Both the position numbers and the translations under genes were made by a program. A DNA stretch of 64,000 nucleotides from Antarctobacter sediminis (GTDB lineage Bacteria > Pseudomonadota > Alphaproteobacteria > Rhodobacterales > Rhodobacteraceae), in contig NZ_JAHUZG010000003.1 of the NCBI RefSeq assembly GCF_019218285.1, positions 744,001 through 808,000 of the forward strand. The letters run 5' to 3'. The notes beneath the pieces were generated by a model. The model was not told the origin of the DNA. It saw only the letters and a list, made by a program, of their open reading frames with translations, and ran no database searches. Each line of letters starts with the position of its first letter. Position 1 is the stretch's first letter. Positions 2,642-45,273 of the stretch are shown piece after piece.

Positions 2642-3308
2642 GGGACTCGACGATCTTCAGCATGAAATCGAGGCACTGAGAGATCGTTACGGCCTTGATC
2701 ACCTTGTCTATCACTGGGTCAACAGCAATGGCGAACAATACGGATGCGGGACATATGACCTTGAGTGGGTCAATCGCTACGTCGCAAAGGGCTATCTGCG
2801 CATCGACCCGGTCATACAGGGCTGTTACCAGCGCTTTCACCCGGTCAACTGGAAGCGTCTGGACTGGTCCAGCAAATCGGCCCGCGCCTTCTATGATGAC
2901 GCCATCAAACATGGCGTCGGCAACCAGGGCTATTCGATTCCGATCCGCGGACCGAACGGCCAGTTCGCCCATTTCACGCTGAATCACAGTTGTTCTGACG
3001 AAGAATGGGAGGATTTCACCACAACTCACCGACGTGATCTGATCCTGGTCGCGCATTACTTCAACTCTAAGGCGTTGGAGTTCGAGCCAGGTCGCACACC
3101 GGACCCCGCGCAACCCTTGTCCCCTCGGGAAATCGAGGCGCTGACGCTCCTGGCAGTTGGATACAACCGGGCGCAAGCCGCTGATACCCTTTCGATTTCC
3201 GAACATACGCTGCGGGTGTACGTCGAAAGTGCCCGACATAAATTGGGCGCCTTGAATACCACTCATGCAGTGGCGCGGGCGCTGAGTCGGGGTGTGATCG
3301 TGGTGTAA
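2571..3308 (+). CDS. LuxR-family acyl-homoserine-lactone-responsive regulator
   Basis: The product is 245 residues with the two-domain LuxR layout. An autoinducer-binding domain occupies about residues 20-165 and contains the YHWVNSNGEQYGCGTYDLEW segment with the conserved Trp/Tyr/Asp ligand-pocket positions. A C-terminal GerE-type helix-turn-helix occupies about residues 182-243, with LSPREIEALTLLAVGYNRAQ. The chosen ATG at 2571 follows a GAGG motif and overlaps the preceding small gene by 71 nt. An in-frame start further upstream would place basic, non-LuxR-like sequence at the N-terminus. The gene lies 113 bp ahead of a luxI homologue on the same strand, so it most likely senses that enzyme's signal. 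Confidence 0.92.
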   Translation: MALGFLAGSAPRLDGLIERLESAEGLDDLQHEIEALRDRYGLDHLVYHWVNSNGEQYGCGTYDLEWVNRYVAKGYLRIDPVIQGCYQRFHPVNWKRLDWSSKSARAFYDDAIKHGVGNQGYSIPIRGPNGQFAHFTLNHSCSDEEWEDFTTTHRRDLILVAHYFNSKALEFEPGRTPDPAQPLSPREIEALTLLAVGYNRAQAADTLSISEHTLRVYVESARHKLGALNTTHAVARALSRGVIVV

Positions 3309-34694: not shown

Positions 34695-34708
34695 TTGACC
34701 TGCATCAA
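34695..34708 (-). promoter_or_regulatory. FNR box upstream of ccoG
   Basis: TTGACCTGCATCAA is one base from the FNR consensus TTGAT-N4-ATCAA. It is centred about 70 bp upstream of the ccoG GTG start, compatible with a class II FNR promoter and oxygen-limited induction. Confidence 0.8.
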
Positions 34709-35699: not shown

Positions 35700-35855
35700 A
35701 TGTTCGGAATTCTTGCAAAGAGCTTTCTCACCGCCACGCGGAACATTTCGGGCGCACAGCGCCCGACGGCAGAGGATTTGCCAAAACTGGGCTGGCTGGA
35801 TGAGGTCCTGCCGTTTCGCCACCACGCCGGCCACAGGAGCGGGCGCGATGATTGA
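35700..35855 (+). CDS. Small ORF divergent from lysR
   Basis: The ORF predicts a 51-residue protein starting MFGILAKSFLTATRNISG and ending His/Arg/Asp-rich. It is preceded by an excellent AAAGGAGG ribosome site at 5 nt and divergent from lysR, as LysR targets often are. The N-terminus is mildly hydrophobic and amphipathic. No family is recognised. The ribosome site and context favour a real gene, but the short length leaves doubt. Confidence 0.5.
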   Translation: MFGILAKSFLTATRNISGAQRPTAEDLPKLGWLDEVLPFRHHAGHRSGRDD

Positions 35856-35982
35856 TCCTGTCGTCTACCGGCCCGATCTTTGGCGGGCGGCCCCGGGCCC
35901 CGGGCAAACGACCGGGCAAGCATCGGGGCAAACGCGCAAAGCGTACCGTTCCCCGGTGAAAGTGCAAATGCGGTAAGGGATG

Positions 35983-36094
35983 CAAAAGGGCGCTGGTGTC
36001 CCAGGAAACGCGCGAACAGGACAGGACACCAGCGCCATACCCAACCCCTTGAGGCCGGGAAAAGTGCGTCGGGATCTTGATCCCGACGACCTTG
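35983..36094 (-). ncRNA. Candidate FNR-controlled small RNA
   Basis: The non-coding gap between the small ORF and the GGDEF gene (about 280 bp) has a complete transcription unit on the minus strand. An FNR-type box (36127-36140) is followed by a -10-like TATTCT (36106-36101). A predicted start at about 36094 lies near 41 bp from the box centre. Next come a 9-bp hairpin (36089-36068, CAAG loop) and a second hairpin of 13 bp (36036-36024 with 36001-35989, 22-nt loop), then C-TTTT. Expected length is about 110 nt. An ATG (GGTATGG) at the second hairpin opens a 57-codon frame, but its composition is not protein-like. FNR-dependent small RNAs such as PcrZ are known in Rhodobacter; whether this one is related is unknown. 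Confidence 0.6.
35984..36036 (-). terminator. Terminator hairpin of the candidate small RNA
   Basis: A 13-bp perfect stem (GGCGCTGGTGTCC with GGACACCAGCGCC) with a 22-nt loop is followed on the minus strand by C-TTTT-GC. Confidence 0.65.
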
Positions 36095-36126
36095 AGCAGA
36101 GAATAGCAGGACGGCCCGGCACGGCC

Positions 36127-36140
36127 TTGACCTGAGTCAA
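36127..36140. promoter_or_regulatory. FNR-type box upstream of the candidate small RNA
   Basis: TTGACCTGAGTCAA is a perfect dyad of TTGAC/GTCAA half-sites with a 4-bp spacer. It overlaps the stop codon of the GGDEF gene, so it must serve a downstream unit on the minus strand or be fortuitous. Confidence 0.65.
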
Positions 36141-37567
36141 GTCGCCGGGCTGCGATGCCGGATTTTTTGACCTGCCGAGGTCAGTGCGCTGGTTTTCTGC
36201 ATCGGTGTCGGCAGACCGGCGATCTTGCGGTTGCTGACCACGCGATTGCGACCGCCGTTCTTGGCGGAATAAAGCGCGATGTCCGCGCATTTCAGCCAAT
36301 GGTCCTCACCATCCAGATCAGGGTCCAGCTCGGCCACGCCGAAACTCGCCGTCATCGGAGGCACTTCCGACGTGGGGGGCGGAGCGGCGGCGATGCGCAT
36401 GCGCAGAGACTCGGCCAGAATTGCGGCGCTGTCGGCGCAGGTGCCGGGCAGGATCAGGCCGAACTCCTCGCCGCCGACACGGTAGAGCCGCACCTTATCC
36501 TGAAGGTTTTTGCGCACGCGCTGTACGATTTCGATCAGGGCGCGGTCGCCCATGTCATGCCCATAGCCGTCATTGATCGACTTGAAATGGTCGATGTCGA
36601 ACAGGATCAGGCTGGCCGTGGCATCGTTGCGGCGCACGGTGCGGAACACCTCGGCCAGATCGTTTCGGAACTGGCGGGCACTGTTCGCTCCGGTCAGCCA
36701 ATCTCGTTTGGCGGCGGTTTCCAGAGCTTGCATCGTAGCCGCGCTGGCCATTTGCTGCCCAAGCGCCGCGCTCAGCAGGCTGACCATCTCACGTTCCACG
36801 GGGGTGAAACCGGGGCGTTCGTCCGGCCCCTGAAAGCAAAGCGTGCCGATCCGTTCGCCGCCGACGGTAAGGGGCGTGCTGATGTGAGTCATCATCCGGT
36901 GCGGCCCCAAGGCAAAGCCCTGACCCGAAGGGCAAAGATGCAGGGCGACGGGGGTGCCGGCACAAAGGGTTTCGCCACAATCCTGCGCGGCGCGGCACAG
37001 GCGCAAACCGGGCGTGATGCCGGGGATCAGGGAACGGGCATGGCTAACGGTCAGGCCGCCGTTTTCAAGCCGCGTGGCCATGGCGACAGGCATGCGCAGA
37101 TAGTCGCGCCCAAGCGCAAGGATCGCGTCGATCTTTTGCGCCGGGCATGTTGACTGGTCGGATAGGAGCGCCAACAAGTCGCCGCGCGCCATGGCGCCCC
37201 GATGGTCCTGTGTGACGTCGCGCAGCCTGACCACCCAGCACGATGGACCGTCGTTCGGTAGGCTGATCGACCATCGGGTGACCTGTGCGCGGATGCGGGT
37301 GCCGTCCATGTGGCGATAAAATTCGGTATCGCCCGAACCCGGCAGGTCCGATTCAGCGCGAAGATCGGCTTCGCTGCGGCCAAGCAGATTGGACGCGTCG
37401 ACCCCGATCAACGCCGCGAAGGCGGACGACACCCAAAGGATGCGGTGCGATGAATCCGTGACCAGCACGGGATCCGGGCAGGCCGCGAAAAGCGGTTCGA
37501 TCCATCCTGTGATGTCATCGGCTGCCATGGGCAAGCCGTGGGTCGATCCGGTCATGCGCGTATCCAT
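36137..37567 (-). CDS. PAS-GAF-GGDEF diguanylate cyclase
   Basis: The product is about 476 residues. A PAS domain lies at about 17-125 (LVTDSSHRILWVSSAFAAL), and a GAF-like domain at about 130-275 is rich in cysteines (LRLCRAAQDCGETLC, LHLC, GTLCFQGP). The C-terminal GGDEF domain has FDIDHFKSINDGYGH and the catalytic loop GGEEF at about 365-369. The inhibitory I-site RxxD is absent (Q and V at the two positions), so feedback control by c-di-GMP is probably missing. The ATG at 37567 is chosen; 37555 is an alternative. Upstream starts would cross the ccoP terminator. It lies between the two cco operons, hinting at an oxygen/redox link. Confidence 0.88.
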   Translation of the reverse strand: MDTRMTGSTHGLPMAADDITGWIEPLFAACPDPVLVTDSSHRILWVSSAFAALIGVDASNLLGRSEADLRAESDLPGSGDTEFYRHMDGTRIRAQVTRWSISLPNDGPSCWVVRLRDVTQDHRGAMARGDLLALLSDQSTCPAQKIDAILALGRDYLRMPVAMATRLENGGLTVSHARSLIPGITPGLRLCRAAQDCGETLCAGTPVALHLCPSGQGFALGPHRMMTHISTPLTVGGERIGTLCFQGPDERPGFTPVEREMVSLLSAALGQQMASAATMQALETAAKRDWLTGANSARQFRNDLAEVFRTVRRNDATASLILFDIDHFKSINDGYGHDMGDRALIEIVQRVRKNLQDKVRLYRVGGEEFGLILPGTCADSAAILAESLRMRIAAAPPPTSEVPPMTASFGVAELDPDLDGEDHWLKCADIALYSAKNGGRNRVVSNRKIAGLPTPMQKTSALTSAGQKIRHRSPAT

Positions 37568-42196: not shown

Positions 42197-43123
42197 TTAC
42201 CCTTGCGGAGGGCGGATGCGCCCTTCGCTGACCTGGACCGCCGATCCGCTGACGTGAATCGCTGCAAGCGCGCCGCCCTGCACCTTGATGCGCAGGCCGA
42301 TCTGGCTGGGGCGGCCCATGTCGGCTCCCTGTTCCAGCATCAAGCGCGTCTCACCTTCGGTCAGGCCGCCCGATGCCAAAAGCTGTGCCGCCAGAATGGC
42401 CGAAGCCGATCCTGTGGCCGGATCTTCGGGAATCCCGTCGACGGGCGCGAACATGCGCGCCGTGAAATCCGCCCCCTGTCCGGGCGAATAGAGGTAATGC
42501 GAGGCAATGCCCGATGCGTTGCACAGCGCCTCCCATTCGGCGCCGTTGGGGCGCGCGGCGGACAGGGCCGCGCGGTCGCGTAGCGGGATATAGCCAAAGG
42601 TGGGGCCGCCTTGCCAGATCCCGGGGCGATGCGCGCCAAAGCCGATCTGTTCGGGCACCAGCCCAAGCGCCGCGGCAATCTGCACGGCATCTGGCATCTC
42701 GCCGCAATCGGCGGCAAAGGGCAGGACCGGCGCACGGAACTCTGCCCCGATGCGCCCGTCCTGGCGCCAAACTTCGACCGGAACCAGTCCGGCGATCTCT
42801 TCCAGTGTGATCGTCGTCCGGAATGCGCCCTGAGGCGCAGTTTTCAAGGCCAGGTGAATCGCACACCCGATGGTCGGGTGCCCGGCAAAGGGGATCTCTG
42901 CGGTCGGGAAGAAAATCCGCACACTTGCCGTATGGGCCGGATCCACAGGGCGGCGGATAAAAATGGTCTCGGACAGGTTGAACTCACGCGCGATGGTCTG
43001 CATCGCGGAATCGCTCAGACTGTCGGCGGCTTCGACGATGGCCAGTGGGTTCCCGGCATAAGCCGTATCGGTAAAGACGTCGCAGGTGACAAAGTGCAGG
43101 GGGTCAGACAAGCAGTCCACCAT
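42197..43123 (-). CDS. PhzF-family isomerase/epimerase
   Basis: The product is about 308 residues. PhzF-like signs are TCDVFTDTAYAGNPLAIVEAA at the N-terminus, a probable catalytic Glu in LSETIFI, GHPTIGCA, and GEDPATGSASAI-like DPATGSAS near the C-terminus. Family members catalyse isomerisation of unknown or varied substrates; phenazine synthesis is not implied. The start is uncertain: 43123 (ATG) is used, and 43144 is an alternative. Both overlap the end of fnrL (about 20-41 nt), suggesting coupled translation. Confidence 0.88.
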   Translation of the reverse strand: MVDCLSDPLHFVTCDVFTDTAYAGNPLAIVEAADSLSDSAMQTIAREFNLSETIFIRRPVDPAHTASVRIFFPTAEIPFAGHPTIGCAIHLALKTAPQGAFRTTITLEEIAGLVPVEVWRQDGRIGAEFRAPVLPFAADCGEMPDAVQIAAALGLVPEQIGFGAHRPGIWQGGPTFGYIPLRDRAALSAARPNGAEWEALCNASGIASHYLYSPGQGADFTARMFAPVDGIPEDPATGSASAILAAQLLASGGLTEGETRLMLEQGADMGRPSQIGLRIKVQGGALAAIHVSGSAVQVSEGRIRPPQG

Positions 43124-43853
43124 CAGCGTCGTCGCCTGCTTCATCCATCAGGCGGGACATGTCCGGCACGGTGACATGCCGCTTGCCTTCAAGTTCGATC
43201 ACGCCGTCCTTTTTCAGGGCCGAGATCTGGCGGCTGACCGTTTCCAGTGTCAGACCAAGATAATCGGCCATGGCTTCGCGGGTCAGGGGCAGATCGAACA
43301 CGATCGGGCCTTCGCCCGGGCCGCGCATGTTCAGCGTCGCATCCCGGCGGGCGATGATCGACAGAAGCGACGCGATCTTTTCGCGGGCAGTCTTGCGGCC
43401 CAGCACAAGCATCCATTCGCGCGCCGCGTCCAGTTCGTCCAGCGTCATTTCCAGCAGGCGCTGGGCAATATGCGGCGTGCGTTTCATAAGTTCTTCGAAG
43501 GGCGCGCGGCGAAAACAGCACATGACCACATCGGTCGTGGCCACCACGTCATAGGCGGCCATGTTGCGCCCCGGCCGGCCCACGAAATCGCTGGGCAGTA
43601 GCAGGCCGACCATCTGCGTGCGGCCGTCTTCCATCGCCTGGCTGAGCGTGGCGATCCCCGACACGACCGACCCAACGAAATCCATCCGGTCACCGGCCCA
43701 GATGATCGACTGGCCGGCTTCGAACTTGCGGTAATACTTGATCTGCTCGAGGCTCTCGAGTTCGTCGCTTTCGCAGCGGGCACAGACAGCACGGTGCCGG
43801 ATCGGGCAGTCGCCGCATTCCGGGGCGACCGTCAAGCTACGTTCATTCAGCAT
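43104..43853 (-). CDS. fnrL: FNR-type oxygen-responsive regulator FnrL
   Basis: A 249-residue Crp/Fnr protein. The N-terminal cluster is C13-x2-C16-x7-C24-x2-C27, and a further Cys pair lies in MCCFRR, giving the 4Fe-4S oxygen sensor ligands. The HTH contains TREAMADYLGLTLETVSRQ with the E-x2-S-R specificity residues for TTGAT half-sites. The start at 43853 is fixed by its position after the FNR box (43869-43882); a longer ORF to 43919 would run through the regulatory region. In Rhodobacter sphaeroides FnrL controls cco, hem and bch genes. It presumably autoregulates here. Confidence 0.97.
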   Translation of the reverse strand: MLNERSLTVAPECGDCPIRHRAVCARCESDELESLEQIKYYRKFEAGQSIIWAGDRMDFVGSVVSGIATLSQAMEDGRTQMVGLLLPSDFVGRPGRNMAAYDVVATTDVVMCCFRRAPFEELMKRTPHIAQRLLEMTLDELDAAREWMLVLGRKTAREKIASLLSIIARRDATLNMRGPGEGPIVFDLPLTREAMADYLGLTLETVSRQISALKKDGVIELEGKRHVTVPDMSRLMDEAGDDADGGLLV

Positions 43854-43868
43854 TTCACCTGCCTCTTG

Positions 43869-43882
43869 TTGATCTGCGTCAA
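43869..43882. promoter_or_regulatory. FNR box between fnrL and hemN
   Basis: TTGATCTGCGTCAA is one base off consensus. It lies about 16 bp before the fnrL ATG and about 36 bp before the hemN ATG, so it may activate one gene while repressing the other. Confidence 0.85.
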
Positions 43883-43917
43883 AGCCCTGCAAATCGCGGT
43901 GCCCTAACCGTACGTCC

Positions 43918-45273
43918 ATGGCGAACCGAACTCAACTCGCGCGGCTTGGCCTCTTCGATGCCAAAGTGCCGCGATACACCTCATACCCGACTGCACCGCA
44001 TTTCGACGGTGATGTCGGGCCGGCGCGATTCGAGGAATGGATCCGCTCTGTTCCTATAAATGGTAACATATCGCTTTACTTGCATGTACCTTTTTGCCGC
44101 AGGTTGTGCTGGTTTTGCGCATGCCGAACGCAGGGCACAGCGACTCTGGGGCCGGTTGAATCCTATGTGGGGGTTCTGGAACAGGAGTTGAAACTGCTTC
44201 GCGCGGCTTTGCCGCAGGGGGTGCGGCTGTCGCGGTTGCACTGGGGCGGCGGGACGCCGACGCTTTTGTCCCCTGAGTTGATGAAACGGCTGATCGCGGC
44301 CACCCGCGACGTGGCTGATTTTGCCGATGGATACGAGTTTTCGGTGGAAATCGACCCGAACGAGATCGACGAGGAACGGCTGGACACCTTGGCTGACGGC
44401 GGAATGAACCGGGCCTCGATCGGAGTGCAGGACTTCGATCCGCAGATCCAGGACGCCATTGGCCGCGAACAAGGGTATGACGTGACCCGTGCCGCGGTCG
44501 AGATGATCCGGGCGCGCGGGGTGCAAAGCCTGAATGCCGACATCCTGTTCGGCCTGCCGCATCAAAGCAAGGCACGGATCACCGAGACCGTGCAAAAGCT
44601 GCTTAGCTTCGCGCCGGATCGGGTGGCGCTTTATGGGTATGCGCATGTGCCGTGGATGGCCAAGCGGCAGCAGATGCTGCCGTCGGATGCGCTGCCTACG
44701 CCGCAAGAACGGTTGGACCTTTTCGATACCGCGCGCCGCCTGTTTGTCTGGGACGGCTACGACGAGATCGGGATCGACCATTTCGCGACCAAGGAAGACG
44801 GTCTGTCCGTGGCACAGCGGAACGGCAAGCTGCGGCGCAATTTCCAAGGCTACACCGACGATACCTCGGATTACCTGATCGGGCTGGGGGCGTCTTCGAT
44901 CTCGAAGTTCCCGCAGGGGTTTGCGCAGAACGCGTCAAGCACGTCCAAATATATCGCTGCCGTCCGCGACGGACAGTTTTCGACCGCCCGCGGCCATTGC
45001 TTCAAGGGGGAGGACAAGTTGCGCAGCCGCCTGATCGAGGCCCTGATGTGCGACTTCCGCATCGACGCGCACGAGATTCAGCGGGATTTCAACGTCACGC
45101 GCGATGTGCTGTTCCGCATGTTCCGCGAAGCCAACAGCCGTTTCGAAAACATGCTGGAGGTAACAGAAGACGGGCTGTTCATCCCGCGTGAGGCACGGCC
45201 TCTGACGCGGATGATCGCACGTGGTTTTGACACCTACGATCTGTCAAAGGCAGGCCATTCCAGCGCGATCTGA
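43918..45273 (+). CDS. hemN: Oxygen-independent coproporphyrinogen III dehydrogenase
   Basis: A 451-residue radical-SAM enzyme. Cluster cysteines are C60-x3-C64-x2-C67 in VPFCRRLCWFCACR, and LHWGGGTPTLL and EIDPNEI follow. The C-terminal HemN domain has the usual conserved substrate region. It makes protoporphyrinogen IX for heme and bacteriochlorophyll under low oxygen. It is divergent from fnrL with a shared FNR box. The Rhodobacter homologue is called hemZ. Confidence 0.96.
   Translation: MANRTQLARLGLFDAKVPRYTSYPTAPHFDGDVGPARFEEWIRSVPINGNISLYLHVPFCRRLCWFCACRTQGTATLGPVESYVGVLEQELKLLRAALPQGVRLSRLHWGGGTPTLLSPELMKRLIAATRDVADFADGYEFSVEIDPNEIDEERLDTLADGGMNRASIGVQDFDPQIQDAIGREQGYDVTRAAVEMIRARGVQSLNADILFGLPHQSKARITETVQKLLSFAPDRVALYGYAHVPWMAKRQQMLPSDALPTPQERLDLFDTARRLFVWDGYDEIGIDHFATKEDGLSVAQRNGKLRRNFQGYTDDTSDYLIGLGASSISKFPQGFAQNASSTSKYIAAVRDGQFSTARGHCFKGEDKLRSRLIEALMCDFRIDAHEIQRDFNVTRDVLFRMFREANSRFENMLEVTEDGLFIPREARPLTRMIARGFDTYDLSKAGHSSAI

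Follow-up and report, generated by a model that had tools for sequence, protein, structure and literature searches.

A candidate small RNA with a near-invariant terminator loop, found directly behind ccoP or behind a predicted FNR-type promoter in Rhodobacteraceae

What does an FNR box control when it lies across the stop codon of a gene, between the ccoNOQP and ccoGHIS genes? The question is raised by the window, a 64-kb stretch of Antarctobacter sediminis DNA, in which a unit read on the minus strand stands between a gene for a PAS-GAF-GGDEF protein (3′ of ccoP) and a LysR gene (5′ of ccoG). A sequence-only reading had taken this unit for a probable FNR-controlled small RNA gene, and all the features that it named are present on the minus strand: the FNR dyad, the TATTCT element, a hairpin at the predicted 5′ end and a terminal hairpin with a TTTT tail, whose stem comprises 14 bp where 13 had been counted (Table 1). 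That the box covers the stop of the upstream gene is borne out by the PAS-GAF-GGDEF stop at 36137, and the proposed distance of about 40 bp from box to start, as in class II promoters, agrees with the 40.5-41.5 bp measured from the box centre to the predicted start A (36093 or 36092). The explanation favoured here, with a probability of about 0.6 for the whole of it, is that of a non-coding RNA, about 110 nt long, that is co-regulated with the cbb3 oxidase and acts in trans through a loop. Conservation of the RNA hairpin, its location and the promoter architecture are supported by sequence comparison; transcription, release from the ccoNOQP mRNA and pairing in trans are what we infer from them.

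Table 1. Features of the predicted transcription unit, in window coordinates
Feature	Position	Strand	Basis or comment
FNR box TTGACTCAGGTCAA	36127-36140	-	centre 36133.5, about 41 bp 5′ of the predicted start
-10 element TATTCT	36100-36105	-	seen in the sequence
Predicted transcription start (A)	36092-36093	-	prediction from class II geometry
5′ hairpin CGTCGGGAT-CAAG-ATCCCGACG	36067-36088	-	fold
Middle hairpin CCCGGCCU-CAAG-GGGUUGGG	about 36040-36059	-	fold
Conserved hairpin, 14-bp stem and 20-nt loop GUCCUGUUCGCGCGUUUCCU	35989-36036 (loop 36022-36003)	-	fold and comparison
TTTT tail, probable intrinsic terminator	35984-35987	-	seen in the sequence
Predicted sRNA, about 110 nt	35984-36093	-	geometry of box, -10 and terminator

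Within the window, the TTGAYN4RTCAA dyad occurs five times, against 0.10 expected from shuffles: at the predicted sRNA, before ccoG (34695-34708), at two places before ccoN and close to the start of a gene of the FNR type. The latter gene (43104-43919, minus strand) has its FNR box at 43869-43882 and encodes an FNR/Crp-type protein with a cysteine cluster (CGDCPIRHRAVCARC) at the N-terminus; this is the probable trans-acting regulator of the unit and is perhaps autoregulated. The RNA from 36098 to 35980 folds at -59.8 kcal/mol, compared with -41.8 ± 3.8 kcal/mol in shuffles (z = -4.7). Beyond what the sequence-only reading had described, a middle hairpin is found, 4 of whose 8 pairs have two-sided changes that preserve the pairing among seven sequences, and the conserved part of the unit turns out to be the loop of the last hairpin. 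The 5′ hairpin is kept in relatives of the same genus and varies in sequence in other genera. A generic sigma-70 promoter and terminator scan of the window did not flag the unit, so the case for it rests on comparison rather than on consensus matching. The PAS-GAF-GGDEF gene (36137-37567, minus strand) separates ccoP from the hairpin and is found at the same place in two other loci (L019 and L027) and in Sagittula marina (L163). A small divergent frame of about 51 codons (MFGILAKSFLTATR...) lies at 35700-35858 on the plus strand; similar frames are present in L017, L023, L027, L088, L091 and L101, and the frame has no Pfam match up to E 0.1.

The part of the unit that relatives have in common is the last hairpin, whose stem changes pairwise while its loop stays nearly constant. 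In a MAFFT alignment of 15 sequences, 10 of the 14 stem pairs show two-sided changes, and none of 500 shuffles reaches any of five measures of covariation. A larger alignment of 99 sequences gives the same picture: although it was fitted to a covariance model, a procedure that leans towards structure, and includes two rows that are weak second matches, 96% of its stem cells are paired, its covariation score is 0.622 against 0.274 ± 0.010 in shuffles, and 298 cells carry two-sided changes against 91 ± 13. Two-sided changes affect 13 of its 14 pairs, a value reached by 61 of 500 shuffles; the other four measures are unreached. A palindrome acting at the DNA level is rejected because the stem covaries. 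The 15-nt loop core, CTGTTCGCGCGTTTC, stands unchanged in 115 of 131 loci, and the core CUGUUCGCGC is usually followed by GUUUCC. A small protein-coding RNA of the Pos19 kind is also rejected, since no frame through the loop has a consistent start or stop across 129 loci. A terminator alone would leave the loop free to vary; the stem and the TTTT are present, but the exactness of the loop core does not fit. At least four T follow the stem within 9 nt in 84/131 loci, fewer than four in the other 47.

In the genomes sampled, the hairpin is largely confined to one family. A DNA search matched 16 of 61 genomes, all of them among the 37 that belong to the same family, and a covariance model detected the hairpin in 137 of 295 family genomes sampled at one per genus. 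Spread outside Rhodobacteraceae is rejected, with no match in the 24 non-family genomes and, in a class-wide draw of 240 genomes (at least three of them family members), a single weak match outside the family (E 0.006). Among the named carriers are Rhodobacter viridis, Thioclava indica, Paracoccus yeei, Ruegeria, Phaeobacter, Leisingera, Roseovarius, Shimia and also Sagittula marina, which shares the GGDEF insertion of the window. The ccoO gene is found in 269 of the 295 family genomes; about half of these have no hairpin match under a strict filter that may lose some hairpins, and the hairpin thus appears not to be needed for the cbb3 oxidase. Conversely, it occurs in none of the 20 genomes listed as lacking ccoO, outside which stand six further ccoO-less genomes. 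One incomplete genome (G302, 73% complete) carries the hairpin beside ccoG (L121) and is absent from the ccoO rows, so it must be among those six.

The hairpin is likewise bound to one neighbourhood. Loci were fetched and oriented from 131 of the 137 matching genomes, leaving out six weak matches (E 3e-4 to 7e-3) and excluding from the counts two weak second matches without cco genes (L143 and L146). Genes of the cco cluster lie beside the hairpin in 129 of the 131 loci; one of the remaining two has the LysR gene only (L038) and the other neither (L032). Wherever cco or LysR genes adjoin the hairpin they are on its strand, in no case on the opposite one. Among the exact loop matches listed (83 matches in 80 loci), 55 have adjoining cco genes and 28 do not, the latter belonging to other taxa except for one MAG named as a family member (L165). 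Two arrangements can be distinguished. In attached copies (87/131), the hairpin lies no more than about 110 nt behind the end of ccoP, a 3′UTR position, and these loci thereby have by position what characterizes 3′UTR-derived sRNAs. In detached copies (44/131), a spacer, an inserted gene or a rearrangement separates ccoP from the hairpin; the window, with its own FNR box and the GGDEF gene in between, is of this kind and lacks the 3′UTR character.

The two arrangements differ in their upstream sequence. A perfect FNR box stands within 250 nt upstream of the hairpin in 41 of the 44 detached copies, the window included, and in none of the 87 attached ones, while the background rate in the same loci is 2.3% (38/1683 windows; Fisher p about 8e-31, uncorrected for kinship). 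The 0/87 is partly trivial, as ccoP coding sequence lies upstream and leaves little non-coding room for a box; the 41/44 is not. The three detached loci without a box are L032, which has no cco gene within 3 kb, and L039 and L108, which at 111 and 147 nt from ccoP are practically attached. Downstream of the box, an A of the -10 element is found at +30.5 from the box centre in 37 of the 41 loci (p 8e-22), as compared with 13/41 for the best A column on the reverse strand; a T follows at +34.5 in 23 loci, and 32 have a purine at +41.5; the corresponding A of the window is one base closer to the box than in most detached loci. As judged from sequence, this site and spacing constitute a class II FNR promoter directed at the hairpin, and the class II box and -10 distance typical of FNR-controlled sRNAs such as FnrS are found here. 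The RNA would therefore appear to be made either as the tail of a ccoNOQP mRNA under FNR control or, as in the window, from an FNR-driven gene of its own. The sequence-only reading had staked its proposal in part on conservation of box and hairpins in relatives, and conservation is indeed seen, of the box at nearly all detached copies and of the terminal hairpin in about half of the family genomes. Its FNR-controlled small RNA gene is supported for the lineage of the window, by virtue of the box and the fixed -10 distance, but not for the 87 attached loci, where the hairpin belongs to the ccoP 3′UTR and has no promoter of its own. The comparison thus supports regarding the gene as the version that the window's lineage has of a wider RNA family.

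The alternation between the two arrangements appears to have been frequent. On a quick ccoP tree covering 121 of the 131 loci, parsimony gives 22 changes between the attached and detached states and 20 changes of the box. Across seven independent pairs separated by well-supported branches, the box changes in the same direction as the state in a median of 6 and never in the opposite one (sign test, median p 0.03, range 0.016-0.063). Two cases hold both forms at once. In L062, the loop of the hairpin on the ccoP side is apparently decayed and that of a second hairpin, with an FNR box, is intact (about 2085-2151 and 3001-3067), which may be a snapshot of a promoter switch under way; Shimia thalassica has an attached copy without a box and a detached copy with one. 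L112, L156, L181 and L186 each have two or three adjacent copies behind ccoP that agree in their loops; the stems differ in the first three loci and are alike in L186.

Altogether, these observations lead to a model in which a fall in oxygen would allow an FNR-type regulator, the candidate being the one encoded at 43104-43919, to bind the box upstream of the unit; transcription would then start at about 36093 and run as far as the terminator at 35984. In the genera with attached copies, the RNA would instead be the 3′ end of the FNR-controlled ccoNOQP mRNA, freed by RNase cleavage. In either setting, it would be made while FNR is active, alongside the high-affinity oxidase. The stem would present the near-fixed loop, which would base-pair with mRNAs, probably over Shine-Dalgarno-like sequences, so that expression of the cbb3 oxidase would go together with reduced expression of other genes. 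The function that we infer as likeliest is regulation in trans through the loop. A broader picture, to be taken as tentative and somewhat short of even odds, is that of a family-wide sRNA of oxygen limitation that has switched many times between mRNA tail and FNR-driven gene, has kept its FNR control throughout, acts in trans and re-tunes competing respiration.

As the UCCU ends of the loop resemble an anti-Shine-Dalgarno sequence, mRNAs with AGGA-type sites are plausible targets. Loop duplex energies against the start regions of nine cco-locus genes gave no signal (ccoN being represented by only 25 loci and uspA by 9). In the home genome, the loop complement with up to three mismatches is not enriched, its 133 sites falling short of the 157 counted for the reversed pattern, and inspection of 30 of the 133 gave no clear start-proximal target. 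Across 120 genomes, near-perfect loop complements have more sites than the reversed control, in part because the RNA gene itself is counted; 17 of 18 sites inspected lie within or opposite long reading frames and one behind ctaD. Start-linked complement patterns also exceed reversed controls, at 17 against 10 in the home genome and strongly in a second search. In the latter, 29 of 30 loci were inspected and nearly all lie inside or opposite long frames, so that the excess is read as codon usage. No recurrent start-proximal site was found among the loci inspected, which are part of all sites; L425 and L436 have possibly start-proximal complements, with one occurrence each. In L328 (G099:C7, about 547652), an almost perfect loop complement directly follows the stop codon of ctaD, which encodes the aa3 oxidase. 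As a target ctaD is rejected, since the complement is absent from 28 other genomes with a ctaD match (30 searched) and is due to chance or specific to that lineage.

These searches bear directly on the rival explanations. One is that the hairpin is nothing but the 3′ end of the cco transcript, a terminator or stability element acting in cis whose loop is kept for a protein, the detached copies being passengers. The empty mRNA searches are what it predicts, and so are the two-thirds of hairpins that closely follow ccoP and the T-runs behind most stems. However, passengers would hardly be expected to have an FNR promoter directed at them in nearly all detached copies, with no conserved coding frame through the hairpin, and in L062 it is the copy at ccoP whose loop has apparently been lost and the detached copy that has kept it. 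A terminator is not known to require a fixed 15-nt loop, and this explanation is considered unlikely. Because the target searches came out empty, a protein as the partner of the loop is a live rival in another form as well: the loop could be the docking site of an RNA-binding protein, which the RNA would titrate in trans. Such a role would suit both a loop core that is exact over 15 nt in most loci and a complement that is not enriched in the home genome, but the tandem copies that a sponge would lead one to expect occur in four loci only, and it is rated improbable.

A further possibility is that the FNR promoter, together with the hairpins, serves the LysR-ccoGHIS genes downstream as a leader or attenuator. 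The unit does lie upstream of LysR and ccoG in the same direction, and some 60-230 nt separate the hairpin from the ccoG start in a number of detached loci. Yet ccoG has an FNR box of its own in the window, 39 of the 87 attached loci likewise have a strict box downstream of the hairpin at a distance of up to about 350 nt, the window hairpin ends in a TTTT tail, and the distance to ccoG exceeds 1 kb in several attached loci; a leader function is accordingly given little credence, about as little as protein titration. The reading of a trans-acting RNA made together with the cbb3 oxidase is preferred to all three. If it is correct, the low-oxygen switch of Rhodobacteraceae, a family of major marine bacteria and photosynthetic model organisms in which post-transcriptional low-oxygen control is little known, would gain a new node: an RNA with a near-invariant loop, linked to the high-affinity oxidase and present in about half of the sampled genera. 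The repeated switches would also provide a natural series on how 3′UTR-derived sRNAs turn into stand-alone genes.

In the main text of open-access papers, no earlier report of this RNA was found, and the accessible text of PMC5107571, PMC4263372, PMC8625941, PMC9438474 and PMC4809877 does not mention it; the term "cco" is absent from the main text of PMC8625941. An unnamed earlier sighting may exist in Paracoccus, for which PMC5107571 lists 167 sRNAs; the genetic context of two of them (intergenic 134 and 100) is the same in Rhodobacter sphaeroides. An Rfam search of the window gave no match at the gathering threshold and seven weak ones (E 0.19-4.8), none named FnrS, so that membership in the FnrS family or another listed Rfam family is rejected. 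The CcsR or "cuckoo" RNAs have CCUCCUCCC loops, with CUCCUCC in a hairpin loop; this affiliation is rejected too, as the loop here is free of CUCCUCC. RepG of Helicobacter pylori and other sRNAs pair via a terminator loop. The proposed pairing region of the cco RNA is likewise the loop of a terminator hairpin, the sequence and host being different.

PcrZ of R. sphaeroides is under FnrL control, at a position that presumably differs from that of the cco-locus RNA. It is described as a low-oxygen sRNA that represses photosynthesis genes (PMC4263372). The same text reports FnrL ChIP-seq sites at the promoters of the R. sphaeroides sRNAs RSs0019 (Pos19) and RSs2461, as well as further FnrL sites without an annotated gene (PMC4263372). 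RSs0019 and RSs2461 are named by loci other than cco, and Pos19 is described as a small coding RNA. FnrS of Escherichia coli, an sRNA under direct FNR control that represses its targets in the absence of oxygen (as cited in PMC4263372), is alike in proposed role; unlike FnrS, the cco RNA is found at cco in Rhodobacteraceae, is conserved in the loop of its last hairpin and is a 3′UTR element in the attached majority of loci. The R. sphaeroides RNAs UdsB, UdsC, UdsD and UdsH are described as 3′UTR-derived and are predicted to end at a terminator (PMC8625941, PMC9438474). Like PcrX and SorX of the same species, they share with the attached cco RNA a place at the 3′ end of an mRNA, whereas PcrX and SorX come from other mRNAs and the cco RNA also has FNR-driven stand-alone copies. 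A parallel for the change of promoter is MicX/MalH, which in Vibrio cholerae and E. coli occupy the same genomic location, with an own promoter in one and another biogenesis in the other, and which have no known common targets (PMC9438474); unlike MicX/MalH, the cco RNA has kept the same loop through between 7 switches, counting well-supported ones, and 22 by parsimony. The cco RNA is regarded as a new family of a known general kind, working at most like FnrS as an FNR-driven RNA and like PcrX, SorX and the Uds RNAs as a 3′UTR-derived one; what is unusual about it is that it has apparently alternated many times between mRNA tail and FNR-driven gene and that its near-invariant part lies inside the terminator loop.
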